Shown: one piece after another, positions 24,008-58,190 of the stretch | Layout: the number at the start of each line of letters is the position of its first letter | Position numbering within the stretch: position 1 is the first letter of the stretch | DNA from: Telopea speciosissima | Taxonomy: Eukaryota; Streptophyta; Magnoliopsida; Proteales; Proteaceae | Direction of reading: 5' to 3' | Assembly (NCBI RefSeq): GCF_018873765.1 | Contig: NC_057925.1 | Span: 388,927-452,926, forward strand | DNA: 64,000 nucleotides | The notes under the pieces: generated by a model | The model's database searches: none | Told to the model about the DNA's origin: nothing | Seen by the model: the letters and a program-made list of their open reading frames with translations, nothing else | Position numbers and translations under genes: made by a program

Positions 24008-24214
24008 CAATTTTGGAATCGTGATCGTCTACGGCCTGTTGCTTGGAGCAGCCATAGCAGCGCACTAATGAGGCACGGCACAATGACCGCCTTACCTCTG
24101 CTCGGGCAAGGTGCTCGGGCAGGGGTAAGGCGGTCATTGCACTGCACCTCATTAGTACGCTGCTATGGCTACGACGGGCAAGCAGGCCGTAGACGATCTG
24201 GATTCGTAATTTCG
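24008..24214. repeat. Hairpin element A with GGGGTAAG core
   Basis: Arms of about 88 nt (24016-24102 and 24118-24206) pair almost completely, for example GATCGTCTACGGCCTG on both sides and CCATAGCAGCG...ACTAATGAGG. The 19-nt core GGGGTAAGGCGGTCATTGC is at 24122-24140 and is mirrored in the left arm. CAATTTTG (24008-24015) and TAATTTCG (24207-24214) may be a diverged 8-bp TSD. No coding capacity. Confidence 0.8.
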
Positions 24215-24720
24215 AAGGATGAATTAAATAGTAGTGGGTGAAACATTGATTGATGGGGTTCCTATCTGTAAAATATAATTGAATTGTGAGAAGAGCATTG
24301 CGCATATATTGGTCACAACTATAACAAAGATGATCAAATTGTTGCATCTTAGAAACAGAGGAGATGATCAGTCAATTCGACTAGGAGTGTGATCCTACAC
24401 GGACGACCACCCGTGATGGAGACAAGTGGTAGGTGTTTGATTGGCTAATGTTTAATTTAGAGAGTTTAAGCGGAGTGTGACTCTGAAAGATGCAGCAGCA
24501 GCGTTGATCGATCTTAAACTTTGCATCCCTTCGCAGATGGATAAGGGTACTGCAAAGGAAAAGCCCTGTGGAATCATGTGAATGCTTTTAAGATGTGAGG
24601 AAGAAATCTCACCGCTCCATTCACTCTATTCACGTTCCATATATTAAACTTCCCTTATTTGGCTTCGGTCCACATCTCTCCTTAATTCTCACTCCCATTC
24701 CTCTTTTCTCCTTCAGCAAC

Positions 24721-24858
24721 ACTGTCACCCCCCATGAAAGACCTGTCTTTCTTCCTCCTCAAGAACTCTCTGGGAGCCAAGATGAAGACACTGTCACCCC
24801 CCATGAAAGACCTGTCCTTCTTCCTCCTCAAGAACTCTCTGGGAGCCAAGATGAAGAT
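24721..24858 (+). repeat. 69-bp in-frame tandem duplication at the gene start
   Basis: Two nearly identical 69-bp units begin ACTGTCACCCCCCATGAAAG at 24721 and 24790. They differ at one or two bases, so the duplication is recent. Each contains the same ATG (24734 and 24803) and encodes the same 23 residues, so the gene has two equivalent starts. Confidence 0.9.
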
Positions 24859-25702
24859 TAAGGTACGTCTAAGAAGCTTCTGCAATGGGGTTGGTTCAAC
24901 ATCGACGCTCAACCAAAACAAGGCTGACTGTGATTCATCCTGCTGCATGGTGACCCCATCCATTGATACCTCTTCCTACTGGGATGACACTAATTTGGAT
25001 CCAGATCGCCCACCAACCCTGGAGGAGATGATCTTGCAGCTAGAATTAGAAGAGGAAGCTACAAGCAGGAAGGCAAAGTTTGATGACTTTGATGCGTCGT
25101 CGTCATCGTCGAAACGTAGAATGTCTTGCGTGAACAACTCTGACATACTACGTTCTGCAAGGAATGCATTGAATCAGTATCCTCGGTTCTCTGTGGATGG
25201 GAGGGATGCCATGTATCGTTCTTCGTTCCGGAACTTGGCTTCCATTACTGGGGTTGGCTACAAAACTGGGAGAACATCGGTTTGTTGCAGCAGTAGTGGT
25301 CTTAAACTCAGAGCAGAGAAGCTCTTTAAGGATGGTTTTGATTTAGATTTGGAGAGAACTCCTGGGTTACCCCAAACTATAGCTGGAGAAAGCGTGCTCT
25401 GGTGCAAACCAGGTGTGGTAGCCAAGTTGATGGGCCTGGAGGCCATGCCAGTCCCTATTGCTACTGATAGTAACCACAGGAAGGAGAACTCAGAAGTGAA
25501 GTATTTAAATCTGAGCTCCACCAATATTAGGAAGGAAAATCTTAGGAGAGCTGATCAGATGCGGGAACTGGGGAAGAGAAGGCTTGTTATTGGTACCAGT
25601 GGTGGTTGCAGGAGGTTGGGGAGAGGGACTGCCTTCTCAGGCTCAAACTCTCTTTCTCTGGATCCCATGGGAGGTCGGTCAGAGGGGTTGGGAGGCTACT
25701 AG
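24734..25702 (+). CDS. DUF3741 / TRM-like protein (LONGIFOLIA-type motif)
   Basis: A single open frame of 322 residues. The segment GVVAKLMGLEAMPVPI (about residues 231-246) is the DUF3741-associated motif shared by plant TON1-recruiting-motif (TRM) and LONGIFOLIA-type proteins, which act with microtubules in cell elongation. The N-terminus MKDLSFFLLKNSLGAKMK, an acidic stretch DRPPTLEEMILQLELEEEA and a Ser-rich linker fit short members of the group. The true start is ambiguous: ATG 24734 and ATG 24803 lie in a 69-bp tandem duplication, and translation from the second gives about 299 residues. A GTACGT at 24863 could act as a donor but the frame reads through with family-like sequence, so I treat the gene as intronless here. 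A hairpin MITE starts about 20 bp after the stop. Function is inferred from the motif only. Confidence 0.75.
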   Translation: MKDLSFFLLKNSLGAKMKTLSPPMKDLSFFLLKNSLGAKMKIKVRLRSFCNGVGSTSTLNQNKADCDSSCCMVTPSIDTSSYWDDTNLDPDRPPTLEEMILQLELEEEATSRKAKFDDFDASSSSSKRRMSCVNNSDILRSARNALNQYPRFSVDGRDAMYRSSFRNLASITGVGYKTGRTSVCCSSSGLKLRAEKLFKDGFDLDLERTPGLPQTIAGESVLWCKPGVVAKLMGLEAMPVPIATDSNHRKENSEVKYLNLSSTNIRKENLRRADQMRELGKRRLVIGTSGGCRRLGRGTAFSGSNSLSLDPMGGRSEGLGGY

Positions 25703-25724
25703 ACATTTGTTGTAAATTTATATA

Positions 25725-25900
25725 GGGAAAAGGCTGGGTATGCTAGCGGTATATAGTAAGCTAGCACCCTATGTGTCTATCTCTCTCTCTTTTCCTCCCT
25801 TTGAGGGGTAAGGTAGTCACTTCAAAAGAGGGAAGGGGAGAGGAGAGAGATAGACACATAGGGTGCTAGCTTACGGTATACTACTAGCATATATAAATAT
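25725..25900. repeat. Hairpin element G in the 3' flank of the TRM-like gene
   Basis: Arms near 25738-25800 and 25824-25891 pair (TAAGCTAGCACCCTATGTG, GTCTATCTCTCTC). The core GGGGTAAGGTAGTCACTTC (25805-25823) sits in the unpaired loop rather than in the arms. The left edge GGGAAAAGG (25725-25733) matches the inverted right end of element D at 57.4 kb. Its position implies it is likely transcribed in the 3' UTR of the upstream gene. Confidence 0.75.
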
Positions 25901-27660
25901 CCTTCAAGTTCTCTTCAGTTTAGATTAGAAGCAAGAAGTAACTTAGTTTCCTATCTTCCCTATATATGTACATTTCTCTCCAAAGCTAGCTTGTCTGCAA
26001 TTTATGTTTTATTCATGATCAGGTTGCGGAAAAATATTAAAAAAAAAAAATGTTTCAGCGTAGTATGTATTTGGCGCATTTTTCATGCAGTAATTGTTTC
26101 TCTTTGGCTGATAGATGTGCTTGCTACTATTAGGCAAAAAAAAGAACTTGAGGTTACAACTCAAAAAACTCCATATTTTTACCACATATAGGTGTTATTA
26201 AACATCTAACCTTCTTTTGATTGCCCCTACTCTTATTTCCAGAAGTTCTTTTAGTCACGGGTGAAAAAGGATTTTTTAAATAATTTACGGGCATGAGATC
26301 CCTGCCTAGTTATGTGGCCCCTACACCAACAGGGAACCATGTGAGCGTGTGCTTAGGAACATCAACATGGATGAGATTTTTTAGTACACATGTGAAATGA
26401 CATGATTTTACCCTCATTGAAAGAAAAAGTGTGCTCACTAAGAGGGTAAAAAAGTAACATTACAAATTATTTGACATATTAAGAGATGTCCCCCCCCCAA
26501 AAAAAATCCCTTTATGAAAACGTCAATTTTAGCCCCAAAGAACCTAAGCAAGAACATGTTATTTACCAAAAAATAAAATAAAATGAAGCAAGAACGGTAT
26601 TGAGGTCCAAAAATCAAACAAGAGCTCACTGAGGTTAGTGGGAGCAGGATTTTAGTAACCGGTATGGTCTCGGCCAATACCGCTATGATACCAATTCAGA
26701 TCAGTTCGTATCGGTTTAGATTGGACAGTTTTACCCTTAAATTTCAATTAAAATTTATTTCATTTACATATTGTTGGTCAGTACCCCTGGATTGGAATCG
26801 TATTGATCTCTACTGATACCGATACAGCCGATCCGATATCGATTCCTTGAATTATGAGTGGGAGAGGGATGCTGAGAGGGGATACGCCACCAAGAGTGCA
26901 GCCACAATGGGGTGTGGAGGTGGAGGGTGCTACAACAGATGGAGGATCTGGTGGTGATGGTGGTGGATTGTGGGTGATGCTGCTCTGTAGCAATGGGCGG
27001 TTGAGATGTTTCCCAACCCCCATTGGTCCATTGGACGTACAGTCAATATTCTGCCCTCCTGGGGATTCATTCCCAATTTAGCAAAGCGCGTGGGGAACCT
27101 TTTCTCTTATAGTAAAGAATGCTAACATTATTACAAGATGGAGTAGAGACTAGAGTGAGGAGTTAGAGTTGATTTAAATTGCTGGTATAGAGTATAGAGA
27201 GAGGACGAAATTTTGCTGCTATATTTGTAGCAGAATTGTTCCTAGTACAAGGTTGGCAGCTAAGGAAATGGGATCTTAAAGGGTATTTTAGAAAATACTA
27301 AAACCTTGGAGGGTATTTTTGAACCCAAAGGGGAAGTGACCCACTACAAGTGTAGCAGCAAATTTTTTTCCATATAGAGACGATGACCATGCGTGTACAT
27401 ATAGTCTTCGATCCTTTTAATCACAGTTAAAAGAGAATCTCTTTAATTCATTCACGAGATTTTGGGGGTCGGATTTAATTTTGGAATAGTTTGTATTTCG
27501 TATGACTTTTATATATTTAAGGAAAAGAGAAAATAATCACAAATGGAAAAAAAAAAAAAGTTTAGCCATCAATTTCAGTTCATATCTTCAGAAGATGGTT
27601 ACAAAAGAAAAGATCATAAAGTAAGCAATTGAAGGATTGAAAGGCCGAGGAGGACTTTAA
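25901..27660. other. AT-rich spacer with degraded repeats
   Basis: No gene is supported. At 26655-26852 the text GTATCGG, GATATCG and CCGATACAG is repeated in both orientations, resembling a degraded MITE. Similar words occur at 3620-3690. At 26394-26413 GAAATGACATGATTTTACCC resembles the complement of the hairpin core. Confidence 0.4.
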
Positions 27661-27667
27661 TAATCCT

Positions 27668-27668
<1 letters not shown>

Positions 27669-27731
<63 letters not shown>
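27669..27731. repeat. (AT)n microsatellite
   Basis: Uninterrupted AT dinucleotides for about 60 bp. A shorter GGTGAGT array follows at about 27821-27850. Confidence 0.95.
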
Positions 27732-27734
<3 letters not shown>

Positions 27735-28308
27735 GTATAAAGTTAAGTTCAGTGTATGGGGTCTCAAAAAAACTCCAGATAGGTAGGTAGTAAAACCTAT
27801 ATATAATTAATTGACCACTACTGGTGAGTGGTGAGTGGTGAGTGGTGAGCTCTAAAAACAGAAGAAAGGGTAATGTAATGGGAGTCTAATAAGCCTATGC
27901 TTTTTTGTTTTGTTTTTTCCCTTTAAATTCAAGTGGCCATGTGATCCCATGTGCAGTTTCATTTCCCCTTTCTATTTCTTGCTTTTACTTTTATTCTTCA
28001 AATTTTTGGGGAGATAGACCTTTTGGGTTTAAGGCGGCTGGGAGATGGTGCTTTGAATATTTCTTCTTTTCCTTTAGTAAGTAGCAGTACTCATGCACAT
28101 AATATATCATCACCCTTCAGAAACGAACTCATTTTTTACATTATTTGTCTTCTTTTCTTTTCTATAGTAGTTTGAGGTAACATGTTAATGATTTTATTGA
28201 TAACCATATATGTTTTTTTTTTTTTTTGTTGGGAGGGAGGGAAGGGGTAGGTGTTGTCATAGATTTACAATGTTGTGGTTTTTATTTTGGGGAAGAGTTT
28301 TTGGTTCA

Positions 28309-28409
28309 GGAGTGTAGCCCCTGCACAATGGAAGTGCACGAGAAAGAATTGACAGGGGTGGACCGGTCATTTCACGGAGCTACACTCCTGGAGAGAGTAA
28401 TTTTTTCCC
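28309..28409. repeat. Hairpin element E, short and degraded
   Basis: AGGAGTGTAGC at 28309 pairs with GCTACACTCCT at 28379. Between them lies the core GGGGTGGACCGGTCATTTC (28355-28373). The right side ends TTTTTTCCC (28401-28409), like element D. The left terminus is lost in a T-rich run. Confidence 0.6.
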
Positions 28410-28528
28410 TTTTATTTTATAGCTGACTTATTGTCTGTCTCATATATGCTTGGGCATTGGTTCCTCCAACTGATTAACGGTGAAAAGTAAGTAATAAAGA
28501 AAGAAAGCAGAAGAAAAGAAACGGAACA

Positions 28529-28649
28529 GGATTCAATGTCAAATGTACGCAATCTTACTCCTGTTTCTAGAGAGGCTGTTTTCAGGATTTGAACCTGTGA
28601 TCAAGCGTTCAGCAAGTGAGCACTTGACCAATGCGCCAAGCGCAACCTT
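28529..28649 (-). mobile_element. Au-like SINE (tRNA-derived)
   Basis: On the minus strand it begins AAGGTTGCGCTTGGCGCA. It contains a pol III A box (TGGCGCATTGG, 28628-28638) and a B box (GGTTCAAATCC, 28585-28595), then AACAGCCTCTCTAGAAACAGG and GTAAGATTGCGTACATT. This order matches the angiosperm Au SINE family. It is not a functional tRNA gene: no acceptor stem can form and the 3' part is SINE-specific. Confidence 0.8.
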
Positions 28650-30690
28650 CATAACTCAAAGTTATATATATATTAATACGACTAGCATCAACAAAAGAAA
28701 ACATCAAGCCAAGCCCAATGAAGTCTAGTGTATCAATACTTCTCTGAACAACTACCTCCATCCAACTGAAAATACCAGAATTCCAATTTCTCAACATTCC
28801 CTTTTGCCTTTATGTACTGAAAAACCTCTTTGTGTAATTATCTCTGTCACCTAGTACTCAAGGCTATCGAAGGGAATTCTAATACAATACCCTTCAAGAA
28901 CATCACATGTAAATTTCTAGCTTTAGTTAGTTTATATATATAGAGGACTTAATTTAATTGAAGGAAAGCTAGATATACTTAACTTATAAGTTCTCAATTA
29001 GCAAGAAAAAATGATCTATTTTTTGCTTACTATAAAGACAAGTTATAAACTTTTCATGATAGCTAGACTACCCTGAAATTATTAGTTATAATATATATAT
29101 ATATATATGTTCCCATCATTCTGTTGGTTCAGTAGATGCTGTAAAGAACACAGCTTTCTTTTAACCTCTTATTATGACCACCAGCATTTATGAAATTAAG
29201 AGAGGTTTGTATTATGAGACACAAACATTGAGGATAAGAATGGTACAGCTAAGATTAGCTAAAGGAGGAGGAGACAGTTAGAAATAAATAGAAATTACCA
29301 AAGAAAAGAAAGAGAGAGAGAGAGAGAGAGCAGAAGAAGATTGTTGTGCACTCTTTTAATTTGTGAACTGTGAACTGGAAGGTTTGCCACATGCTAGGCA
29401 CTTTAGATAAGTTTTGCAGCAAATTTCCATTCATTCAGCTTTGAGCTTGAAAAGTAAGTTTTTATATGGGTGGTTGGGTTACTAACAGGAAGGCCAAACA
29501 GCAGCCAAAGTACAAATAATTAATAAATAAATAAATAAATCCAGATATATGAAACCCATCACCCTTATGTGCTTAGTTGTGTCATCCAATGCATAATCCA
29601 TAGAAGAATTCCTTAAAAATAATTAAAAAGAGCCTTGTAGCTCAAAAGTGAATATGATAATGATGATGCATGAGCTTGAACACGATTGCTAATTATTGCT
29701 GACTTGTTCCATATTAATCTGCACTTTTGGAATACTTGATTAGCTTCAAGGAGGAAATTATGAAAAGTGCATCATATATGAGAGTTCACCATTAGTTTTA
29801 ATTATAAGGCAGTATAGCTAAGCTAGGGGCTAGCTAGGCTGCTTCTTCTCCTTTAAGAGTTAAGTTGGCAGAAAGATAAAATTTATAAAAGAGTAGCAGA
29901 CCAATAGGATTGAGTTGCAATCAGTTCAAGTGATTTCCACCTCCTTATGTCGTTATGTCCCTCAGTTGTGACTCACTAACTGCAACTGGTGAGTGAATGA
30001 GTGAGTGCTTAAATGCTTAATGCTTAATGCTTATGCTTTCACACACCCCCCTTCCCCTCCCCCAACTTTTTCAATTTGAGGGCCCATAATGGAAGTATCA
30101 CCACATCACTATCTGTTTTTTATTGTTATAAAAGGATAAGATTCTGTTCTACACCCACCCCCCCCCCCCAAAAAAAAAGAAGAAAAGAAAGGATAAGATT
30201 CTGTGAACTTAAGGGTGTAGTGTTTGGTTGGCCAGAAAAGAAAAAGAAGACACATGTCATCAGTGTGTGGTGTGTAGAGGAGGGTGTGATTTGTAGAGAC
30301 TCTACATGGAGCATACTTCAGAGTGTTTTGAGGAGCATCACACCAATCCCCCCCCCAGCAAAAAATTTTTTTATTTTTTTATTTCATTGTTCCTTATTGG
30401 ACAAGTACTATTATGGGCATTCATGCAGTCATGCTCCCAAGGCATCTTGGTAATGGGAAATATAGTCAAAAAATTGCACAAAGTTAAAGAATTAGAAACA
30501 GAGTAGTGGTTATGAAGAAGAAGAAGAAGGGGCCAAAAGGGGAGATGTGCTGGATCCTCTCATCTCATGGGTTTACTTTACTTTATTTTGGCTCTTCATT
30601 CCAACGGTTTTTTGGTTACAATTTTAGTTAGTATTTGTCATGGATGGTCTGGCGTGAAAATTCCATCCCACACCGGCCTTTTCCATGGAC
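28650..30690. other. Spacer upstream of the expansin gene
   Basis: No gene is recognised. Simple repeats include (GA)n at 29310-29330, (AATA)n near 29520-29540, and C/A runs at 30155-30180. The last few hundred bases presumably hold the expansin promoter, but I cannot assign specific sites beyond the TATA box. Confidence 0.4.
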
Positions 30691-30699
30691 TTCCACTTC

Positions 30700-30707
30700 T
30701 ATAAATA
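30700..30707 (+). promoter_or_regulatory. TATA box of the expansin gene
   Basis: TATAAATA lies about 270 bp upstream of the ATG. The 5' UTR appears to hold an intron at 30824-30966, so the spliced leader would be near 100 nt, which is normal. Confidence 0.6.
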
Positions 30708-30966: not shown

Positions 30967-30969
30967 GAA

Positions 30970-32649: not shown

Positions 32650-35030
32650 ATGGTGTTTGTGGTGGCCATCTCAGTTCTCAACTTAAAAAATTTTCCTTCT
32701 CTTTGCTACGGCTCATTGTTGTGGTATCACGTGATCCATTGGTTGAAAAATCAATAGTGTAGCTACACAGAATAATAATAATAAAATAAAAAATCCAATA
32801 ATATTCCATTTCCTTCTTACTTTGGGATTTTGTAGAGCATGAAAGATATATAGAAAAGGAAGCTGGCTTGTGGCTATGGGTTTGAATTTTATTTCTAATC
32901 CCACCCCATTCAACTCCCTTGTATAGTGATAATCTATGTCATCATCATCTATTCATGTAACCCTAATTAATCAAATTATATATGGGGAATATTTAGTAGT
33001 ATGAAGAGAAATAGATAATCCTTCCCTTAAAAGTAACTGACTATAGGAATGGGACAAGAGATTTGCATTTTTAATTTAGCACAAGTACACTTGGTGAAAC
33101 AAAGCTTTAGAAATCCAAAAATAAAAGATTCTGAAACTTTTGTTGTGGTTTTTGACTCATCATCAGTGGATTCAGATTTCAAGGGGTTGAAATTGAATAT
33201 CAATAGGGGGCAAATAACCAATCAGATCTAGTTGGTTATTGAAGACTGTGCCCCCCCACTCCCACAACTTTAAATGCTTTACCAAGATCAATACGAGATG
33301 CCATTAAATATCTCAATAATGTTTATAAAAAAGAATAAATAATCAATTCAAGTATTTCTCCCTGCTCCGATCCTCACATTAACTTAAAATTTGATTGCAC
33401 ATGTCACTCCCCCCATCCCTCTGTCTCTCATCCTTTGTGGAGCTTCTAATTGTAACCAGTTTAGTTACAAATTTTGCTTCTAACCAGAGTATTTCATTCC
33501 TCTTTCTATTCTTTAGCCGGTTTGAATGCCCACTTCCCACCTTCAACTTAGAATTGAAATTTTTGAATTCACTCATCCACTGCTGTGCTGTGAAGTAAAT
33601 TAAAAACATAAAAGAGATCACATGAAAATGAAAAGGGAGGGAGCAAATTAAGTGAAAGTTGAAGCCCATAATTAAATTTGAAAGCCCACTTGGAAAAGGG
33701 TAACACATGATGACTCGGTGTATTAGCTGAATCCCACTATACCTAAAAATAATACAAGAGTTTGTTTGGGCTTTAAATATCTGGACTCTAGACTGTTTTG
33801 TTGCACGTATTAAACAATTTTCTCCCATTCCCCATTGGATTCCCCCACGAACCCCCGAGCTAATAAAGCTGATTTTGTCTTTGGAGTTTGACCAAGGACC
33901 GGTGTTATTAATTAATTAATTAATGAGATAGATGTTTACTACAAATTTGCTTCTTCGTATTCGATCGTGGACTCGTGGTCCCACTGGGACTAATTTGCAC
34001 TTAAAAGTATATATATATATTTTTTTGTCTTTTGGAAGTTTTGCTTTGCTTTTTCGTTCCTGTTCGACAGTGGTTCTACTTGAATTTGTATCCTATGCAG
34101 TTACTGCATGGTGCAGTATTGCATCGTGCGGCGGTTGCAAAGGTCATGTGCATCATGTGGGATCCACTATGTCACATGGCCTCTGTTGCTCCTCACGATG
34201 CACTACTGCACTGTGCAATTACAGGAAAGGATAACGATTCGGTTGTACTTGTAGTGGACCCCAAGCACTATTTTGTTTTTTCCTCCCCTCTTTTGGATGT
34301 TTAACGATATCAATCAAAATCAGAAACTAATTTCAGCTTCTCTCAGCGCCCACGGAGTGTAGGGGGGTCATCCAAGGGCTGGACCGTGCCATACACATCC
34401 TCATGGCTGATTGTATGCACGTTTTTATCGTCTAGTTTTAATTTCAGTTTTGTTTCTTATTCACATTTGACACCGTAGTTACTCCTCAAGTTTTAACAGA
34501 TACAATCCTTCTCAATTCTAAACATTTTTTTTTAGCCTACAGGGTTTTAGGGACACAATATACAAGGCTTCAGGCTTATTCATTTTTCCTTCCTAAATCT
34601 TAGTAATGGAGATCAATCAGCATACGATAACAAGAACGGATGCGTTAATGACATACCTGAATCCATGGCCGTCAAAACACTGTGTCTCACAATGATTACC
34701 TTCTAGTACACCCTTTGCACAACACGAGTAACTATCCTCTTCTCAACTCAACTTTAGATTTCTTGTGTTGAACACTTAATGGGCCAATGCCAATTATAGT
34801 ATAATATTGAATGAGATAGGGACCAATTAACCCTCTAAAAGGAAATACAAGTCTGTTTTCCCATTAAAAGAAAAGAATAATACCTTAGGTCTACACATAA
34901 TAATCCAATATCACACTAGTGATCACTTACCAAAATTGGATTTTGCTCACTTCACTATTAATTAACATCCTAAACTGGTTTTAGGAAACAAATATTGAAC
35001 TATGCTAGCCAACCTAAGAGAAAATCTTAC
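31932..35030. other. Spacer between the expansin and the Tat element
   Basis: No gene is supported. Simple repeats are (CT)n at about 31940-31958 and (CT)n(TA)n at about 32584-32647. One hairpin element lies at 34091-34226. The short open frames have no recognisable family. Confidence 0.45.
34091..34226. repeat. Imperfect hairpin element H
   Basis: The arm GTGCAGTATTGCATCGTG (about 34111) pairs with CACGATGCACTACTGCAC (about 34195), continuing outward to GCAGTTACTGCA / TGTGCAATTACAGG and inward to AGGTCATGTG / CACATGGCCT. The loop is about 22 nt around GGGATCCACTATG. It lacks a clear 19-nt core. It may be a relative of the other hairpins or an independent MITE. Confidence 0.65.
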
Positions 35031-37768: not shown

Positions 37769-40700
37769 TATGTCAAAGGAGGCCGAGAAGAGCGTGGGGG
37801 TCGACGGCCTGAAAAGCAGGATTAAAGAAGAGCCGAGCCAAGGCCTGAAAATAGGCGAGTCGAACGAGTTGAAGATAAAGTCTGAGCTGAGAAGAAAGAG
37901 GACAGGTCCGGGCCGAGCAGTGACAAGGGAGCTCCCATATACACTATCCTCAGAGGGCCCAGGCAAGAGACCACTCGAAAGGCTAAGGCAAATGTACAGT
38001 TCATCGGAGTTGTCGAGATGCCCACCAAGAAGCTTAAGCCAGCGGCGACGATCTCCTTCACCGAGGCCGACCTCGAAGGTATAAGCTTACCTCATGATGA
38101 TGCTTTAGTGGTGCAGGTAGAAATTACGAAGAGACCCGTCCACCGTGTATTGGTCGATACCGACGCATCCGTGGACCTTATATCACTAGAAGCGTACCGA
38201 CAATTTGGCTTCGGCAATGAAGCGCTCAAGCCGGAAGGCACCTCACTTCTCGGGTTCTCGGGAGCTACCGCGACCATCAAGGGCTCAATCGACCTGCTGG
38301 TCACGATGGGGCAAGCTCCATGCCAAGCGACGATCCAAGTCAAATTCATGGTAGTACGGTCGGTAGTGGCTTTCAACGCCATACTCGGCCATCCTTTATT
38401 GACCGCTCTCCAAGCCATCATCTCCCTGACACACTTGAAGATGAAGTTCCCCACCGAGAATGGTGTCAGCGAGGTCCGAGGCGACCAGAAGAAGGTGCGG
38501 GAGTGCTACGCTACTTTTGTCAAGCAAAATAAAGGTAATGTCGGAGGAATGGCAATGTGCGTCGAACACCTGCCCGAGGATCAGCAAGATGAGCTTATCG
38601 AAAGGAGAGGACGACCCGTGGAAGACCTGACCCCATTTCATCTCAGCGAAGATGACCCAGCAAAGGTGGTCCAGCTCGGATCATTACTGAATGAAGATCA
38701 AAGGAATCAGCTCAGAGCTTTCTTAAGGGCGAACGCCGATGTCTTTGCATGGTCGGCTGTCGACATGACGGGCATACCCAGGCATATAGCTGAACACCGA
38801 CTCCACGTAGATCCAAGTCAAAAACCAATTCTGCAAAAGAGAAGGAACTACGCACTTGATCGACAAACCGCGATCAAAGAAGAGGTGGAGAAGCTTCGCC
38901 GATCAGGGTTCATCCGAGAAGAAAAATTCCCGACCTGGTTGGCTAACGTCGTCATGGTCCCCAAACCGAGCGGGAAGTGGAGAATGTGTATCGACTACAC
39001 CGACCTCAACAAGGCTTGTCCAAAAGATGAGTACCCGCTACCTCGAATCGAACTCTTGATCGACGCTACGGCAGGTCACGAGATGCTGAGTTTCATGGAC
39101 GCGTATTTTGGCTACAACCAAATCATGATGCATGAGGAGGATGAGTCATACACGGCATTCCGAACCGACCAAGAAAATTTTTGCTACAAGGTCATGCCGT
39201 TCGGATTGAAAAACGCCGGAGCGACATACCAGCGGCTCGTGAACTATATATTCCACGAGCATATCGGAAGAAACATGGAAGTCTACATGGACGACATGTT
39301 GGTGAAAAGTTTGAAGGCCGAACACCACTTAGCCGACCTGGAAGAAGCCTTTGGCGTATTGAGGAAGAACCAAATGAAGCTGAACCCCGCCAAGTGTGCA
39401 TTCGGCGTGACCTCGGGCAAGTTCCTCGGCTTCCTGGTCTCTGTCAAAGGCATCGAAGCCAATTCGGTAAAAATCAGAGCCACCCAAGAGATGAGCCCTC
39501 CGAGGACGATCCGAGAAGTACAGAGGCTAAACGGACGAGTGGTGGCGTTGGCACGATTCATGTCGAGATCGGGCGACAAGTGCCTACCGTTCTTTAAAGC
39601 CCTCAAGAATATCCGGAACCCAAAGGACTTTATCTGGTCGGACGAGTGCCAGGAAGCTTTTGAAGAGCTGAAGAAATATTTGGAGAACCCGCCTCTTCTC
39701 AGTCGACCCAAACCAAAAGAGGAGCTTCAAGTTTACTTAGCCGTTACCCCTGTAGCGGTCAGCGCGGTATTGATTAGGGAAGAAAGTCGAACTCAAAGAC
39801 CCATATACTACATCAGCCATGTTCTTGTCGATGCCAAGACAAGATACTCCGGGTTCGAGAAAGTAGCATTCGCTCTTGTTACGGCCGCAAGGAAACTAAG
39901 GCCGTACTTCCAAGCTCATCCGATCGCGGTACTGACCGACCAGCCACTCAAGAAGATATTGCACAAACCCGACGTTTCGGGACGGCTGATCACCTGGGCG
40001 GTTGAGCTGAGTGAATACGATATAAGCTATTGTTCGAGGACGGCGATAAAAGGACAAGTCCTTGCCGACTTCATCGCCGAATGCACAGGGCCCGACCTTG
40101 AAGTCGGGGAAGAAAAGACAGTAGAAGAGGTCGGGGCTACGGCCGACCCGACTTGGACCATGAATGTCGATGGCTCAAGCAACTCCGGAGGAAGCGGAGC
40201 CGGCCTGATACTGGTAAGCCCCGAAGGGTTTTTGATCCAATATGCCCTGAGGTTCAAGTTTCCCACCTCGAACAACGAGGCCGAGTATGAAGCCCTCCTA
40301 ACTGGACTTCGAGTCAGCAAAGCAATGGGCGTAAAGCGATTGAAGGTGCGAGGAGACTCCCAACTCGTGGTCAACCAGGTCAATGGAGACTATGAGGCGA
40401 AAGACGAAAGGATGATAGCTTACCTGAGCCGAGCACGAGATCTGATTTTCGAACTTGAGCACTTTGAGATGATTCGAATACCGAGAAAAGAGAATGCCGG
40501 GGCTGACTCCTTGTCCAGGTTGGCCGAGGCCGGCCTCCAATATCTGAGCTGATCAGTATACATAGAAATATTGGAGAAGCCCTCCTTACAAGAAGAAAGC
40601 GTAAAGCACATTGAAGAGGACGGGCCGACCTGGTTGGACCCCATTGTCAACTACTTGGAGAATGACCTGCTCCCGGAGAACCGAGACGAAGCAAGAAAGG

Positions 40701-46208: not shown

Positions 46209-46348
46209 ATAATTATTAAAGAAAAAAGATCTCTACTTGGTAGTGTTTCCTACACCCTCTCACAGGACATTGTGAGATGACACCTCTGCCCCCAGACACT
46301 TGTGTATAGATCTTGCGACCAAGTAGAGATCTCTTGCCCAATTATTAA
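46209..46348. repeat. Hairpin element I with a diverged core
   Basis: AGATCTCTACTTGG (about 46227) pairs with CCAAGTAGAGATCT (about 46319), extended outward by TAATTATTA on both sides. The interior GAGATGACACCTCTGCCCC (46274-46292) resembles the complement of the hairpin core, at about 12 of 19 positions. A related single end occurs near 51022-51060 (AATTATTAAGGATAAGAGATC). Confidence 0.6.
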
Positions 46349-46588: not shown

Positions 46589-48079
46589 CTTTCTTTAATT
46601 ATTGTTCTAAATTCATAAAACAAGACCAATCCTATTCCTCAGACTCTTACGCTACTCAAAACCCGAAGAGTACTTAATTTATCCCAAAGAATGAATGGGC
46701 TCTAAAACCCAACATCGCTTAATTATTTGTGATTTTGAATGCCTTTATATAGACATATACCATTACCATTGGACTATCTCCACCTTATCACTAAAAAAAA
46801 TCTTTGCCCAAAGCCTTAAAAAGAGTATGCTGATGTAGATCATAGATTTGGGCTTTAACTTCTGGGCCGTAGGCTTAGAGCCCTATTTCTACTTATCCAC
46901 CATTCATTAATCCATTAATCTGGATGGTTGGTTTGGGGAAATATTCCTTCTTTAATTATCAAGAATTTATATCGTACAAGAAGAAAAAAAAGGAATTATT
47001 TTTTTTTTTGGTGAAGAAAAAAAAAACGATTTATTATAGAAGGATAATGAGGGCACTCCCTCTCTCTTTCCCTCATTTCGGTTGGAAATTAGAAAAGATT
47101 CAAAGATCGATCGTACTGTTTTTCAAACTTCTTTCTTTTATTTGTGTTTGAAGTTGTCCCCTAAAAATTTATTTTGGGGGGGGGGGGGGGGGGGAGGGAA
47201 TTGGAGAGCTTTAATAAGGGGATAGGGGATAAGAATAGGCCCAAGGTGGTTTGAACTCATGACTTTTTATTTGAACTTTCTTCGTTTTTTCTGGACACTT
47301 AAACTTGAGTTCAGAATTAAGATCAAAGAAGTAGAAAATATCCCTAAACCAAGAGAGAGGGGCATGCAAGTGTTGTCAAAAATTGTACGTTTTTTATATG
47401 TTTGGGGAATTGGGGGTCAGTATTCTCTATGGGAGAGCATGGCCCCTACACATGCATAGGGTCAATGAGAGCATACACGGCAGGGTGGTCATTTCACCCC
47501 CTCTATATCTGGGTGTGGATAGTATACTTGAATCAAGATCACGTTCATTTACATGAGCCGTTCAGATGGAATCCACTCTATGAGACCCACATGAAGTGGA
47601 TTCCATCTGGACGGCTGTGAACCATTCTCATATGCTCCGGTACTTAAACGTGAGTCCAACTCGGTACACTACTCCCCAAGAACTTTTCTCCATTATTTGG
47701 TTGGATGGGACTCCAAAATCCGGAGCTCAGACTGTTCTGCCACAGTAAGATTCACAGAGAACATGAGGGATTGGCATTTGAAGTAATCTGGCCGGGTAAC
47801 TGGAACAAAGAAATATTACTGTACTCTACCTAATGACATTGAAAGTAGAATCACAACTTTACTCTGCCACACACATTCTGTACTCTCTCTCTCTCGTTGC
47901 AAGAAAAGAAAAATAACCACAATGTCCATTTCATCATGTTTGCTCTTATCTTTCAAATTCAATACCTCCTTTAATTTATAAGACTATTTATCCATGTTAA
48001 TTTTTTTTATTTCTTTTCCTTATATTCCGCTCCCGTTTTATTTTCCTCTCTCTCTTCAAGGCCATAATTGTCTCCTAGA
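46589..48079. other. Spacer with a G-run, a core relic and a hairpin
   Basis: No gene is supported. AGGGTGGTCATTTCACCCC at 47482 resembles the hairpin core without arms. At 47556-47616 the arms AGCCGTTCAGATGGAATCC and its complement pair over 22 bp with one mismatch. Poly-G at 47176-47195 is simple sequence. Confidence 0.45.
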
Positions 48080-48280
48080 TCGTGATCTTCTACGGTGTGC
48101 TGTCCGTAGCGGCTTATGCGGTTCAGACAGAACGCTGCACGCAATGTCCATCTTACCCCTGCTCAAGCCCGAGGACCTTGTCCAAGCAGGGGTAAGACAG
48201 ACATTGCATGTGGCGCTCTGTCTGAACCGCACAGACCGCTACAGACAGCGCGCAATAGAAGAGCTGTATTGTTTTCTCCC
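48080..48280. repeat. Hairpin element B with GGGGTAAG core
   Basis: Arms of about 85 nt (48081-48168 and 48183-48266) pair well, for example GCGGTTCAGACAGA / TCTGTCTGAACCGC. The core GGGGTAAGACAGACATTGC is at 48189-48207. The left side shares CGTGATCTTCTACGG with element A (CGTGATCGTCTACGG). The right side ends TTTTCTCCC at 48280. Confidence 0.8.
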
Positions 48281-48368
48281 ACCGCTATCATAAGCAAAAG
48301 TGTTTCTTTTAGTGAGGTGAGAAGCTTATCATACAATTCAATAAATGTATTTATTCTAAACTTGGCTC

Positions 48369-48534
48369 CTGTCAATCGGGCAAGAGTGCTGCATGTGCAG
48401 CACCTGAGATGAGGTAGTGTGCATTTATCGTCTTACCCCTTGCCCAAACGCCTTGCCTGAGCAGAGGTAAAGCGGTCAATGCACACTGCTCATCTCAGGT
48501 GCTGCACATGACTGCATGCTACCCAGATTGACAG
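48369..48534. repeat. Hairpin element C with GAGGTAAAG core
   Basis: Termini are CTGTCAATC and its exact complement GATTGACAG. The arms share CATGTGCAGCACCTGAGATG. The core GAGGTAAAGCGGTCAATGC is at 48464-48482. It lies only about 90 bp from element B and downstream of the GST gene. Confidence 0.8.
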
Positions 48535-48822
48535 AATCTTTTTTGATTTATTCTTATGTAGTGATGTGACGCTTCAAATTTCAACACACAACCAAACTCC
48601 AAAATACACATAAAATACACAAACACATGCATGGTCACATTAGATAGATCATAACCTCCTTAACTACAAGCTCTGTACGTACTACTACATATAGCTGCGA
48701 GTTTACTACGAAACCAAAGTGAAAAGCTTAGCTAGCTGCTAGAAAGAGAGAAAGAGAGAGAGAGATATTAAAGTATCAGAGCTGCTGGTAAATGCTAATT
48801 ATAATTTAGTCGATCGATGAGG

Positions 48823-49844: not shown

Positions 49845-49849
49845 GATAG

Positions 49850-52800: not shown

Positions 52801-52890
52801 AATAGGAACTATTTGATCGATTGAGACTCCTCACGTCAAGTATCAAGATCAAGAATATTACACATGCTGTAGCTGTACACAATATATATA
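49850..52890. other. Spacer upstream of the GST gene
   Basis: No gene is supported. Simple repeats include (GAGT)n at 49858-49885, (AGCT)n at 50069-50086, CACACC units at 51667-51697 and four CATTGCC units at 51697-51726. Sequence at 51022-51090 resembles one end of hairpin element I. Confidence 0.45.
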
Positions 52891-53468
52891 TATATATAGG
52901 GCTGCAAGAGGGTCTAGTTGGGTCGGACTTTACAGATCTCTAGCCCAACCCTAAGTCCCCTTAACAAGGCCCAGACCCTACCCTACCCTAACTCAGGGCC
53001 AAAAAAATCCAACACTGACCCGTCCTCAGGGTCGGGCCAGGCCGGGCTGACCCTGATTGACCCTGATCATGTGGTAAATAGGGGAAAGAAATGTATGGGT
53101 TGGAATGGGCCGGGGAAAACATTATCAATTTTACATAAAATAACACTATAATAAAAAGTATTATATCAGTTATTGTCTTCATATATAATATATTATATAA
53201 AAAAAATGTAAGTGACATTTAAAGTTTATAATATATGTATTATATCAATATATATTTTATAATATAACTTAAATCAGGGTCGGGCCGGGCCGGGCCAAGC
53301 TTAGCTTGAGGCCTCAACCCTAACCCGACCCGACCTTGACTCAGGGTCAGAAATTTTCAGCCCTGACCTGCCCTCAGGGCCAGATATCTCAACCCAAGCC
53401 CTATTCAGGCTCAAAGCGGGCCAGGGCGGGTTCGGGCCGACAGGGCCAAACTTGCACCCCTATATATA
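52891..53468. mobile_element. hAT-type MITE, 562 bp, 8-bp TSD
   Basis: The ends are GGGCTGCAAG (52899-52908) and, inverted, GGGGTGCAAG (53451-53460). TATATATA occurs on both sides (52891-52898, 53461-53468), although it lies in AT-rich DNA. The interior is full of diverged copies of words such as GGGTCGGGCC and GACCCTGA. No transposase. The 8-bp TSD and terminal sequence point to the hAT superfamily. Confidence 0.75.
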
Positions 53469-54261
53469 CATATGGATCATCCAGGTAAAATTAGTGATCT
53501 AATAGTAGTTAGTGATCTTTAATTAAGTATTTGTAGTCTGATATAAACACATATATAGTTCCATCCACATTAATATATATATTTATTCTACATACATACA
53601 TACTATATAATAGTAAGAGGATACTATATAACAGTAAGAGGGAAGGTCATGTAAGGTCAGGTAGGTGTTCTAATTTAAGAATTTTCATTCACTTTAGAAA
53701 AATTTTAAATGATTCACACAATTTGTGTAAATTTGATATAAATGGATGGCTAAGAAAGAGATGAATATCTTCATTACCATCTTACAAAATATTTACCCTC
53801 CAAAAAGTAGAATTTTACATGTAAAAATGTTTTTCACATTAAATTTTACACGCATGACCATCTTTCTACCAGAAACAAAAGTCTATAAATAAAACAAGTA
53901 ATTCAGTAGAGAGCCCTATGGCAGCATTTTTATAACTGTGGTGGATCGAATTGAATCACCCGGTTAAAAAGCAAAACCTTAAGCTATTATTACAAATTCT
54001 CAGAAAGGTTCCAGATATGTTCATCTCATAATGGCTACTACGAAAGATAAAAACAAAAGTTGGCAGGATCTCTCTATAACAAGAGGAAAATGTCTCACAG
54101 AAATTGGAAACAAAGCACATTTTATCCGAGCAAGCTAAAGCCTCATCGCCTCTCTTTCAGCTCTGGGTCCCTAAAACATATAGCAATAATCCACAAGGTC
54201 AGATGCAAGAAATTTTCTAATTTTTGGACGACCGTTTTTCATATGGGTGAGTGTACAAGTG

Positions 54262-54576
54262 TCATTCATACCTCTGAATGCGATCAAGAATGAGCAGCCT
54301 AGGCCCAGGAGGGATTTTGACATCTCTAAGAGCACTGGAAAAAATCAAGGCAAAGTGAAGGACCTCTCAGCATCATCCATATCTAACATAAGGCAAAATA
54401 TTTATAAACTAAACTTCCACCACTTGCCTATCCGTGAGTAAAGGCAAAGTACTGTCTGTTAGCAAGCCTTTCTTGAAATTCTTCTCATAATTCTGGAGAC
54501 CAAGGCTTGTCAACATGCCTCTTGTTCTGGCATAGAACGTATCTTCAACTGGTGGCTGGGAGAACTTTTGCCCTAC
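54262..54576 (-). CDS. SAM-domain protein, last two exons
   Basis: Exon 54576-54428 (149 nt) encodes VGQKFSQPPVEDTFYARTRG and the start of a sterile alpha motif (LTSLGLQNYEKNFKKGLL). Exon 54334-54262 (73 nt) completes it (ALRDVKIPPGPRLLILDRIQ) and ends in TGA. SAM domains mediate protein-protein or RNA binding. The pattern and the short C-terminus fit a plant single-SAM protein. The intron 54427-54335 has a GC donor (GATAG|GCAAGT) and a normal AG acceptor. This is required to keep the frame and the family sequence. Upstream exons should lie to the right. I could not identify them with confidence among the transposons. A frame near 55560-55440 (DYRRFRNNLWDKYATAADSG) is one possible candidate. 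The gene may therefore be intact with long introns, or a 3' fragment. Confidence 0.65.
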
Positions 54577-54953
54577 CTGCAGAACACCAATGAAGACCAA
54601 GGATAAACCTTAAAGTTCAAGACTCATAAATCTTGTGAGAATTCAGTAGTTTTTTTTTTTTATTATTGGATGCAGCTATCCAAATAAACTGGAAAAGGAA
54701 AAAGATAATTCAATGAGAGAAGCAGATGATGACATGCCCAGAACTCTGCATACTACTGCTCCATGCTTTCACAAAGAAAACCCACCAAACTCCCTTAACT
54801 AACAGAAGTTTGATACTTGCTCTCCTAACCTAGGAATCTACAACTAAATAAGTATCCAATGTTCAAATTTCGGCGAAATCATTAAAAAATTTCAATTCCG
54901 CAAGAAACCTAAATGAAATGACAGTCAACATACAACATGCAATGTTCAAAATT

Positions 54954-55344
54954 GCCGAAATCATAGTGGTCAAAGCACTAGGCGACCCTAGGCATTGAAG
55001 GGGGTCAAAAACTACGGCAAGGTTCTAAATCACAGTTTTGAGGCTGGTTTCAACCCTGGTCGAAACCTGGTATTTTCTGGGCTAAACTCGAAATTTTATG
55101 GGCTGGTTGAAACTGGTCAAAACACTGAAACTGGTCGAAACTCAGCATTTTTTTTGGAAACTGATAGAAACTACCAAAAATTGTGAAATATGGTCGAAAC
55201 CTGATATGATCCAGTATTGATCTTAGGATTCGTCTCAGAAAGTGTCGAAACCAAGATTTAGTACCATGAACTAATGCAACACCCACAAGGAGCCTTGAGT
55301 CACCTATGCGACCAAGGCGACGCTTTGTAAACTATGGCCAAAAT
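54954..55344. mobile_element. Middle hAT-type MITE (CATAGT family)
   Basis: Ends are CATAGTGGTCAAAGC (54962) and, inverted, CATAGTTTACAAAGC (ending 55336). Flanks GCCGAAAT (54954-54961) and GCCAAAAT (55337-55344) differ at one base. It is of the same family as the 60.7-63.5 kb element and is itself interrupted. Confidence 0.65.
55010..55276. mobile_element. Inner hAT-type MITE (CAAGGTTCTAAA family)
   Basis: Ends are CAAGGTTCTAAATC (55018) and, inverted, CATGGTACTAAATC (ending 55268). These resemble the ends of the 4.9-kb hAT element at 13.5-18.4 kb. Flanks AACTACGG and AACTAATG share 6 of 8 bases. The interior is made of diverged GGTCGAAAC-type words. Confidence 0.6.
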
Positions 55345-55719
55345 AACTGAAATTTCAGCAAACATTTGGTTTCCGGACGGGGCGAAATGACCAAAAAAAA
55401 CCGAAATTTCGAACCTTGATAGTATCTCACCAACTAGAGAGACTCTAAGAGACCACCTGAATCTGCAGCTGTAGCATATTTATCCCAGAGATTATTTCGA
55501 AATCTCCTATAATCACGAGATAAGACCACAAGTAACATCACGGGAAATGCAATTGCCACGACAACACACTAAAATTCACCCTCCAAAACTCCCAAATCAA
55601 CTTAGAAATTTAACATTAATTCTTAAACAAACTTAATAGTCATTCTTAACTCTACTCAACATAATTCAACAAAGTCTATGGTCTCAACCACTGAAGGGTT
55701 TAAAAAAAAACACATTTGG

Positions 55720-56400
55720 GTTCAGCTTTATGGATCATGTTCTTTCATTCCACTTTCTATTTAGGACCATACCTTGTTCTAACTCGCAAGCATTCATGTC
55801 TTTTCCCACCCCTTCAACCCAAGGCATTTCCAGCCTCAACCGATCCCTGTAAATGTAATCCTCTTTTAATGCATACGTATGTCTTCATTGTGCATGGCCA
55901 AACTATCCCAGTCACTTTCCCCTCATTTTGTTACATATCGGTGCTCCTCCAAAGTTTACTCAAATGCATTCCTTCTGATTCTATCCTTCCTAATCTTGGA
56001 GTCTTGCCACTCACCCATCTTCACATCGTCACCTCGATTACATGTAGCCATGTACAGTTGAAGCTTTATCTTTCCTTTCTCAACATTCATTCACCATAAA
56101 ATTTCTTGCTATCCATTTTTTCACAGAAGTTCTAATTCTATGAGACATACTCATCTATATCTCTCATCATTGAAGACTGAACTGATGGATACTCATTTAT
56201 TTATAGGTCACCAATCATTACCCAGCTCTATTATTTTTATTAAAGCTGCAAAGTGTATTATTTTCTAATCTAGAATATGATTCTAAAGAGGCCCTCAGAT
56301 AATTACAACTTGGCATCTACCCCACTCTAGTCTCATCAATCAAAATTTATGTCATCAGCAAGCATAATACTCCATAGTTCACCAGTAAATGTCTCGTCAC
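55720..56400 (-). mobile_element. Degraded RTE-type LINE reverse-transcriptase fragment
   Basis: The complement of the plus-strand text (for example ATGGCCAAACTATCCCAGTC, CATCAATCAAAATTTATGTC, ATCAGCAAGCATAATACTCC) follows the order of the plant RTE reverse-transcriptase coding region, with many indels. No continuous frame remains. The identification rests on remembered family sequence and is moderate in strength. Confidence 0.45.
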
Positions 56401-57162
56401 TAGTTTACAGCTTATGATAAGTAAAGTCACAATGTGAGATCTAATATTAAATCACTACGATAAGACATACCCATCTCTCCCCAACTTCTCCAAGTATCTT
56501 ATTATTTTGAACTTTGCCATGAACCACCCAATAAGAAGATAGTTTCATCCATTTCCCAAACAAACATATATAGCCCATCATCAATGGCAAATATGTTCTA
56601 GAAACTATTCATGCAATTCAGTCAGGCCCATGAGTAATTTGAAGCTAATTCTGAACTGTCAGGCCGGGCGTTGGGCTTGGAACTATTCAAAATTCATCAA
56701 TTGCAAAATCAGCCCAGCTAGGATGGCATCTCTACCTATACTTCAAATACCTAAAACTACTTGGTGGCCAGCTATCGTATTTTCGTTGCCTTCACTATCA
56801 CCCTACCATTCCAACAACAATACCCTTCATCAGTTGTTTGATCGGGATACTATCCACTCCATAAGCGTCAACGCACGCCAGAACAGAGAGAGTTGCAAAT
56901 ATCATGATAGAAGACACTCCATGCATGAAGGAAAAAAAAAAGGTGAGAAAGAGGAGCATGGAAAACAAATTCGTTTTAGAGAGGGGAGAAGAGGGAAAGG
57001 CAAACTGGATCTCTGTTTCTTGATTCATAGCTTCCACATGTCAAAATATGATTAAGCTGAGGTATCGCAGTTCCAGAGTGTCGTAATCGCCTGTAGCATG
57101 TTTTTACTACTCTCTGAACATATAAATAACAACTTAGAAAAGAGATAAAAATCGACACCCTA

Positions 57163-58190
57163 CAACAACAACAGCCTTTTCCCAACTAAATGCGGTCGGC
57201 TACATGGATCCTAGCAAAGACAAGATTAAAAATAAATAAAATAAGGATAAAGAACGATAACCGGTTAAGTAGCGCGGCGTGTACCTGTGCCCAGACACAG
57301 CCGCATGCAAAATGACCAGTGCACCCCCCTGGAAAGGCGGAAAGGACCAGGGGTGTGCCGGTCATTTCACGCATGGCTGTGTCTGGGCGCAGGTACACAT
57401 GCAGCGCTTCGCGACCAGTTAGCGTTCCTTTTCCCATAAAATAAATAAATAATAGTAAGAAGAAAAGAGCACAACAACATCGACAAAGCTCAGCAATAAC
57501 CCACCTATATGGGGTCGGCTACGTGGATCTTAGCTCTCCAGTCAGCTCTATTCGAGGCCATACTCGAGACAAGGCCCAACCTATACATGTCTTTCCTCAA
57601 AACGTCTCCTAAGGTTATTTTAGGCCTGCCTCTAGCTCTTTTAGATCCATCAATCTGAATCAAATCACTCCTTCGTACTGGTGCATCCCTAGGCCTCCGT
57701 TGAACATGACCATGCCACCTCAAACGACTTTCTTGTAGATTATCATGTATTGGAGCTACACTCAACTCAGCTCTAATGCAGTCGTTCCTTACTCGGTCCT
57801 TCTTAGTCTTGCCACACTTCCATCTCAACATCCTCATCTCCGCCACACTAGTTTATCAACGTGCCGCTTCTTAACTACCCAACATTCCACACTATATATC
57901 ATGGCCAGTCGTATGGCAATCCAATAAAATTTTCCTCTTGAGCTTTGAAGGAATAGGTTGATCACACAGCACGTCAGTTGCACATCTACACTTCATCCAT
58001 CCTTTTTTAATTCTTTGGGTAACATCATCCTCTATATCGCCTTCTTTGCCTACAATAGAGCCCAAATATCTAAAAAATCACTTTGAGGTATCTCTTTATC
58101 ATCAATATTGACCACATCACCAACCGTCATAGTGTGGCTAAGTTGCAGACCATACATATTCTATTCAGTAACACTTGAGTAAAATAGTCA
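57163..58190 (-). mobile_element. RTE-type LINE 3' region, two 3' ends
   Basis: Reading leftward, the C-terminal coding region includes GKFYWIAIRLAM and CWVVKKRHVDKL (with stops and frameshifts), then MAEMRMLRWKCGKTKKDRVR, ESRLRWHGHVQRRPRDAP and WRAKIHVADPI (57846-57505). A 3' end with TTGTTG follows at about 57470. A second HVADP-type 3' end with the tail GGCTGTTGTTGTTG occurs at 57215-57165, so two truncated copies abut or one has been duplicated. The hairpin element D sits between them. RTE LINEs typically end in such short TTG repeats. Confidence 0.7.
57236..57443. repeat. Hairpin element D with a clean 8-bp TSD
   Basis: The element is 57244-57435. ATAAAATA is present on both sides (57236-57243 and 57436-57443). 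Ends are AGGATAAAGAACGATAACC and, inverted, GGGAAAAGGAACGCTAAC. Arms pair over about 85 nt (GTACCTGTGCCCAGACACAG). The core GGGGTGTGCCGGTCATTTC is at 57350-57368. It interrupts LINE sequence. This is the best-delimited member of the hairpin group. Confidence 0.85.

Follow-up and report, generated by a model that had tools for sequence, protein, structure and literature searches.

Miniature inverted-repeat transposable elements (MITEs) of the Mutator superfamily are reported to make up 41.5% of the MITEs in 207 plant genomes, the largest share in the survey that counted them (PMC12550479). In Galileo of Drosophila mojavensis, exchange among the long inverted repeats of different copies has been proposed to found new subfamilies (PMC3573991). 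Tm1, a Mutator/Foldback element of root-knot nematodes, has 9-bp target-site duplications (TSDs) and MITE-like members (PMC3169594), two traits shared by the elements described here. These are seven hairpins with a common core motif in 64,000 nucleotides of Telopea speciosissima DNA (contig NC_057925.1, positions 388,927 to 452,926), hereafter the window. The best full explanation, with a probability of about three in four, is that the hairpins belong to a large clan of non-autonomous Mutator-like elements (MULEs), that is, foldback MITEs, and are copies that have decayed.

The likeness of a transposon's two ends amid the divergence of its family is usually ascribed to an unspecified homogenisation. 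No literature on mirrored-arm evolution in MITEs or on homogenisation of terminal inverted repeats (TIRs) was recognised, judging by titles. With so many small copies from a single clan, two stages can be told apart, paired change while a lineage propagates and independent decay while a copy rests, so that the question becomes testable by counting. The sequence-only reading of the window had posed a paradox, with arms alike within a copy and unlike between copies. At the level of subfamilies the paradox holds, and most changes between the larger consensuses are paired.

Seven hairpins and their shared core

The elements, named by their position in kb, are listed below with their TSDs and cores; strands are given for the cores, and the elements themselves are unstranded.

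24016..24205: palindromic MITE of the GATC-end type, subfamily B, core in both arms
24007-24015 and 24206-24214: near-TSD of the 24.1-kb element, GCAATTTTG / GTAATTTCG, 7/9
24080..24098, minus strand: core, left arm of 24.1 kb, 2 mismatches
24122..24140, plus strand: core, right arm of 24.1 kb, exact
25725..25891: palindromic MITE of a separate multi-copy family (H), GGGA end on the left, single central core
25805..25823, plus strand: the single central core of 25.7 kb
28289..28409: short element with ends GGGGAAGAG / GGGAAAAAA
28280-28288 and 28410-28418: perfect 9-bp TSD of 28.3 kb, TTTTATTTT
28355..28373, plus strand: core of 28.3 kb, on one side only, 3 mismatches
46220..46339: MITE of a multi-copy family, short stem only
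46211-46219 and 46340-46348: perfect 9-bp TSD of 46.2 kb, AATTATTAA
46274..46292, minus strand: diverged core near the centre of 46.2 kb, 5 mismatches
48077..48271: palindromic MITE of the GATC-end type, possible TSD TTGTCTCCT / TTTTCTCCC, 7/9
48141..48159, minus strand: core, left arm of 48.1 kb
48189..48207, plus strand: core, right arm of 48.1 kb
48358..48545: palindromic MITE of a diverged GATC-end type, by inspection of its ends
48349-48357 and 48546-48554: perfect 9-bp TSD of 48.4 kb, ATTTATTCT
48421..48439, minus strand: core, left arm of 48.4 kb, 4 mismatches
48464..48482, plus strand: core, right arm of 48.4 kb
57245..57435: palindromic MITE of the GGGA-end type (E)
57236-57244 and 57436-57444: perfect 9-bp TSD of 57.3 kb, ATAAAATAA, in AT-rich flanks where other registers match too
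57309..57327, minus strand: core, left arm of 57.3 kb, 5 mismatches
57350..57368, plus strand: core, right arm of 57.3 kb, 1 mismatch from the E-type core

All seven elements are self-complementary, as the sequence-only reading had it, but only five strongly so. Best local arm identity is 77/93 at 24.1, 55/61 at 25.7, 64/78 at 48.1, 59/71 at 48.4 and 72/84 at 57.3 kb, while 28.3 and 46.2 kb have short stems only (14/15 and 17/18). The common core stands firm: the window holds 7 matches with up to 3 mismatches where 0.03 are expected, and none of 100 shuffles reaches 7. Element by element, with the best of three core variants (one derived from the 25.7-kb family) as the query, no shuffle out of 200 equals the best match in six elements. 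At 46.2 kb, where a weak core had been placed at 46274 and is confirmed on the minus strand with 5 mismatches, 2 of 200 do. The description of one core per hairpin is right for 25.7, 28.3 and 46.2 kb, which have a single core at or near the centre. The hairpins at 24.1, 48.1, 48.4 and 57.3 kb instead carry two, one in each arm, roughly symmetric about the centre, at up to 5 mismatches; at 24.1 and 48.1 kb both arms have the core at up to 3. An end of the type TTTTCCC after the core and in one polarity is present at 28.3 and 57.3 kb, but at 48.1 kb the stretch in question, TTTTCTCC, lies in the likely TSD or flank.

The arms were said to be mostly unlike between copies. This is so for distant copies, whose arms are 0.46-0.55 identical, but not for 24.1 and 48.4 kb, which agree over arm and core at 51/61 aligned positions (best of four arm comparisons), nor for the outer 26 bp of 24.1 and 48.1 kb, where the highest of four comparisons (0.58-0.81) gives 0.81. 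The arms of the 25.7-kb copy do not significantly resemble those of any other element in the window. An impression of a mosaic of three modules, gained from comparisons within the window, was not relied on once genome copies had been compared.

Flanking repeats consistent with the arms were sought in the window and scored against 1,000 shuffled flanks. Perfect 9-bp TSDs enclose four of the seven copies, at 28.3, 46.2, 48.4 and 57.3 kb, where the best flank-repeat score is equalled by 10, 2, 7 and 3 shuffles, respectively. At 57.3 kb, in its AT-rich flank, a reading of 10 bp scores highest; the perfect 8-bp TSD reported there is a true repeat, but it is readable as 9 bp with matching ends. At 24.1 (in another register), 48.1 and 25.7 kb the best score is equalled in 55, 231 and 797 shuffles, so the repeats at these three do not stand alone. 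The 25.7-kb copy, from which about 14 bp of the right terminus are gone, had no TSD in the flank-repeat search. The 9-bp TSDs fit MULEs.

Ends, target sites and core across the genome

The main type of element in the genome is about 189 bp long and consists of an asymmetric 7-bp terminus, a GATCnTCTAC block, a variable arm, the core and a loop. It includes the copies at 24.1 (subfamily B) and 48.1 kb and, by inspection, the diverged copy at 48.4 kb; that at 57.3 kb belongs to a GGGA type. Length is 188-190 bp in 64 of 103 copies, and G+C content is 0.58 in the elements versus 0.42 in the window. By capture-recapture over part of one contig (C1), with 12 shared elements, the genome is roughly estimated to hold about 4,300 GATC-type elements. 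They are thus short, non-coding, numerous and uniform in length, as MITEs are, and too small to encode a transposase. For the set of 103 copies, end-chosen elements had to measure 160-215 bp and to possess a second end; the set falls into 17 clusters, of which 8 were examined, and neighbours of one tandem array may be counted twice in it.

The core pattern occurs at 1,090 places (561 + 529) in the 823-Mb genome, and its reversed control at none. From 100 listed places 90 loci were sampled, L004 and L005 being the same element; of the other places, two lay inside sampled loci, five belonged to one tandem array and three stood at the end of the list. Hairpin scores of at least 30, where the shuffled maximum is 26, were reached by 51 of the 59 loci with a TTGC core and only 10 of the 31 with a TTTC core; not every core carrier is a hairpin. 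Against IMG/VR the two exact core patterns gave 0 matches. At C1:22216101-22286261 seven core matches lie about 5.4 kb, or multiples of it, apart, probably a tandem array whose larger unit carries one element (L052, L053).

Choosing elements by their ends leaves the core free to be present or absent. The end pattern, which does not contain the core, occurs at 1,154 places (579 + 575; control 0). Of 100 listed places 84 were sampled, and 81 remained after 3 duplicates were removed. The remaining 16 places comprise 11 in elements already sampled through their exact core, 3 second ends and 2 others; because those left out are mostly exact-core elements, the count that follows is slightly biased against the core. 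The core lies within 5 of 17 substitutions in the first arm of 75 of the 81 loci (shuffled control 18/1,620) and within 3 of 17 in 63, while the exact pattern occurs within 230 bp in only 5. A matching second end is present in 65 of the 81, and the stem continues to the core. That the core might be missing from most members is excluded for this main type, less clearly for the GGGA type. Among the end-chosen copies, column conservation is 0.88-0.90 in the end block (partly by selection of the sample), 0.82-0.88 in the core and 0.62-0.78 in the spacer.

The GATC-type tests of the target site cover loci with both end motifs, which leaves out 48.4 and 57.3 kb among others. In the sample of core loci these are 44 of 95, with L004 and L005 both counted; each was aligned by its own end motif, and the end offset was picked among 5-9. 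This aggregate over genome copies, which decides where single copies do not, gives a flank identity of 0.69 at 9 bp with the end set 7 bp outside GATC. Other registers give 0.23-0.41; the two exceptions (0.69 and 0.61) are registers contained in that repeat or containing it. At least 6 of the 9 TSD bases match in 30 of the 44 loci; among the end-chosen loci with two ends they do so in 44 of 65, with all nine matching in 24. The 7 bp at the termini are asymmetric, CAATTTG-like at one end and GGATCCA-like at the other, and terminal identity over these positions is lower within copies (0.425) than between them (0.55; 42 copies). The ends are CA/GG in 49 of 103 copies. GATC-type elements thus have 9-bp TSDs, a fixed length and asymmetric termini, and they carry the core even when chosen without it. 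MULEs have TSDs of 9-11 bp and terminal inverted repeats, long in plants, and both features are present here.

Other families carry the core between different arms. For the family of the 25.7-kb copy, 40 of 723 candidates were scored, 39 of them other copies, at 80-89% identity and mostly over positions 1-167. In the four copies examined the ends are GGGA, inspection shows 9-bp repeats (three perfect, one 8/9), and a single central core departs from the GATC-type core at 3 or 4 of 19 positions. In the short-stemmed family of the 46.2-kb copy, 40 of 1,324 candidates were scored; the ten copies examined have a diverged core with 4 to 7 mismatches, and the window copy lacks a middle stretch present in several other copies. 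In both families the core lies at or near the centre. For the 28.3-kb element, one DNA search of the genome returned only the element itself. Of 33 TTTC-core loci, 8 could be assigned both GGGA-type ends, and 7 of these have a flank repeat with at most 1 mismatch, mostly AT-rich (8-10 bp, shifts of 3 allowed, no shuffled control). Eleven GGGA-type elements with both ends fall into 5 whose second arm is of a different kind (one being the reference), 3 with clearly like arms and 3 with arms alike by eye that do not score.

How the arms change

The arms are not unrelated. They are grouped into subfamilies, the larger of which have nearly palindromic consensus arms, and wholly unrelated arms were ruled out by the arm comparisons among genome copies (L005 and L053 were left out of the first of these). 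The left and right consensus arm bodies differ at 1 position in subfamily A (45 copies), 4 in B (16), 7 in D (15) and 6 in F (6); two further clusters, each of two copies, have 21 and 12 differences. Between the consensuses of the larger subfamilies most changes are paired: 22 paired and 1 one-sided between A and B, 21 and 5 between A and F, 21 and 4 between B and F, 16 and 6 between A and D, 15 and 8 between D and F, and 14 and 7 between B and D.

Within single copies the picture is different. An arm body is on average 0.780 identical to its own partner (103 copies), well above the identity between distant copies, yet the nearest arm to each of 84 arms is its own partner in 17 cases, the same side of another copy in 40 and the opposite side of another copy in 27. 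Among close copies an arm resembles the opposite arm of another copy about as much as its own partner. For pairs with a mean copy identity of 0.87-0.90, identity is 0.866 within and 0.875 across copies (29 pairs); at 0.84-0.87 it is 0.851 and 0.846 (122 pairs). Copy by copy, identity within exceeds that to the opposite arms of the three nearest copies in only 43 of 103 (means 0.780 and 0.791). Rare variants of the left arm are matched by the same base in the right arm in 0 of 45 cases in A, 3 of 42 in B and 0 of 51 in D, a total of 3 in 138, where permutation gives means of 0.6, 2.2 and 2.5, about 5.3 in all. Mirrored rare changes are thus not in excess, and the proposal of a copy keeping its own arms alike is not supported on either count. 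Frequent variants are mirrored in A (126 versus 64.7 permuted), weakly in B (20 versus 13.5) and not in D (20 versus 20.6); those of A are markers of sub-lineages. C to T and G to A make up the bulk of the changes from consensus in A (483 of 714), an excess expected of methylated, ageing copies.

Unmirrored rare variants together with paired subfamily changes argue that the re-matching of arms takes place in propagating lineages, and that conversion going on within resident copies is not its cause. Joint change of both arms seems to accompany the birth of a new element lineage. The model that follows has a MULE transposase, acting in trans, recognise the ends, either the GATCnTCTAC block or a GGGAAAAAG-type end, perhaps aided by the inner core. 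In the GATC type it would cut 7 bp outside the inverted repeat and so create 9-bp TSDs. The founders of subfamilies would have near-perfect palindromic arms set between an asymmetric 7-bp terminus and an asymmetric loop. In propagating lineages the changes of one arm would be copied to the other, by conversion or by replacement of an arm within the stem, while ends and core stay constrained as the arms change; once a copy came to rest its arms would decay independently. Such copying would have to spare the outermost asymmetric 7 bp and the loop. A whole-arm snap-back would equalise the ends, so that the tract must be limited to the stem unless movement itself requires asymmetric ends.

Several observations weigh against this account. 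At a mean copy identity of 0.81-0.84, identity within copies exceeds that across them (0.839 versus 0.819; 173 of 242 pairs). Left and right consensus arms differ at 8 positions in C and 12 in G. C and G are separated by 7 paired changes, 12 one-sided ones and 8 in which both arms changed without pairing, F and G by 9, 11 and 6, respectively; the paired excess shrinks with these small groups, and one-sided changes are the commoner in F-G and C-G only. The left-right distance is below that expected from one consensus in A (0.174 observed, 0.257 expected; 43 of 45 copies below), B (0.172 and 0.201; 11 of 16) and D (0.266 and 0.290; 7 of 15), which is read as sub-lineage structure, where some conversion could hide. 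Conservation in itself does not mark out the core, to which the loop comes close (0.74 in the loop, 0.82 in the core); what marks it out is that families with different arms carry it. The core is less regular in the GGGA type: selection by the end gave 16 elements, of which 9 have it at a loose threshold (no control); a second end was found in 11, and at least 7 of 9 TSD bases match in 7 of these. Apart from the window's 24.1 and 48.1 kb, the GATC-type copies all come from the one contig. MULE domains are abundant in the genome (150 scored of 827 candidates), but no MULE gene with these ends was found, the nearest of the domains compared lying 37.6 kb from an end (133 of the 150 MULE matches against the 193 end matches listed), which leaves membership of the MULEs incomplete.

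The rival explanations differ in what keeps the arms paired. Ongoing foldback gene conversion, by which a resident copy would extrude a hairpin and repair its mismatches so that its arms stay alike as copies drift, accounts for the higher identity within than between distant copies, for its slight persistence at 0.81-0.84 and for the low left-right distance in A. The effect is gone for the closest copies and rare changes go almost unmirrored, and on these grounds it was rejected as the main cause; we consider it quite unlikely. Selection for pairing, with the hairpin itself needed as a cruciform or as a stem RNA that feeds silencing or a microRNA, would explain paired arm changes and conserved length. 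It is unlikely, given that related core carriers often lack pairing arms (the 10 of 31 TTTC-core loci above), that the whole window has no Rfam family match at gathering thresholds and that mirrored rare variants are not in excess. The identity of the elements is a separate matter. The 8-bp repeat first read at 57.3 kb would suit hAT-type MITEs, but it can be lengthened to 9 bp, and the profile summed over the genome loci has its maximum at 9; at 8 in that register identity is 0.26. Neither the window TSDs nor the 44-locus profile thus gives the 8-bp TSD of hAT elements, and this candidate, rejected on both, is highly improbable.

Modular exchange is a serious contender at somewhat less than even odds. 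It holds that arm units are swapped by recombination at the loop or core, that a palindrome arises when one arm overwrites the other and that the core persists because it is the shared junction; it overlaps with the Mutator-like foldback account and differs in the copying step. The sequence-only reading had offered a version of it, arms replaced as units while the core stays, and this finds some support. The 25.7-kb family, with arms unlike the others, retains the core at its centre, core carriers that are not hairpins exist, and the one GGGA end type is seen in elements whose arms are alike as well as in elements whose second arm is clearly different (the 5 of 11 above). Within the GATC type, on the other hand, arm identity grades smoothly and length is near constant, as in ordinary divergence, and no breakpoint has been mapped. 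Returning to the foldback MULEs, a core that keeps its central or near-central place although the arms differ points to another site under constraint, distant from the ends. It is possible, if rather doubtful, that transposition or linked replication itself rewrites one arm to match its partner and leaves the asymmetric 7-bp ends and the loop untouched, so that each propagating lineage is re-symmetrised and the central core, common to families that differ in ends and arms, serves as a hinge or a second transposase site. Arm symmetry would then be a by-product and a record of mobility.

Neighbouring features and known systems

Two further features of the window resemble the elements in part.

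47404..47530, unstranded: possible relative with two different arms, not a hairpin, recognised by eye with approximate limits
47480-47495: core-like GCAGGGTGGTCATTTC within it

The arm pairing of this possible relative is not significant; its right arm scores 28 against a GGGA-type arm (shuffled maximum 23). Over 47404-47690 it adjoins a separate 61-bp hairpin at 47556-47616, and the stretch would be a composite or nested insertion. The hairpin at 34.08-34.24 kb, which lacks the core (154 of 200 shuffles equal its best match), served as a control. It spans 34082-34240, with ends GAATTTGTATCC / GAATCGTTATCC and a near-TSD of 9-10 bp (one mismatch; 29 of 1,000 shuffles), and is possibly a coreless relative. 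In two other inverted repeats the core was not noticed: a perfect 28-bp repeat flanking 63 bp at 20976-21094, and a 67-bp hairpin at 3537-3603 with 31-nt arms that are 90% complementary.

The 25.7-kb element begins 22 bp past the stop of an open reading frame (ORF) with a VARLMGL motif, which lies in 24734-25724 and ends at 25702, so that the element is perhaps in a 3' untranslated region. By eye, a tandem duplication of about 65-70 bp surrounds the start of this ORF (24717-24858). At 38018-40552 an 844-aa ORF with reverse transcriptase and RNase H domains belongs to a retroelement. Ten of the 11 window ORFs of at least 200 aa were scanned, of which 4 have retroelement domains, 1 the VARLMGL motif and 5 nothing; a MULE domain is absent from these ten.

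Plant Mutator-superfamily MITEs, as the survey describes them, are likewise short and non-coding, with terminal inverted repeats and a high copy number (PMC12550479). The present elements differ from that description in arms that are symmetric almost to the centre, in termini that are asymmetric over 7 bp and in a central core common to families with different arms. Plant MULEs with multiple long TIRs, in the account given of them, likewise treat long TIRs as units open to duplication or acquisition, but their extra TIRs are mostly in tandem, whereas here one arm mirrors the other (PMC3310237). Galileo shares long inverted repeats that define subfamilies and chimeric copies; it is described as a member of the P superfamily with a 7-bp TSD and arms of up to 1.26 kb (PMC3573991).

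The arms of Tm1 are described as tandem arrays of 13-15 bp repeats that vary in number, and a member that carries a transposase is known (PMC3169594). In the Telopea elements a transposase-bearing member was not found and the arms are about 85 bp long and non-repetitive by look, with no tandem repeats of about 14 bp seen by eye in the arm consensuses. The asymmetric 7-bp motifs that lie outside the inverted repeat of Tm1 are a close parallel, matched by the asymmetric 7-bp termini found here, and the two systems are further alike in having a conserved motif at the inner end of the repeat (PMC3169594).

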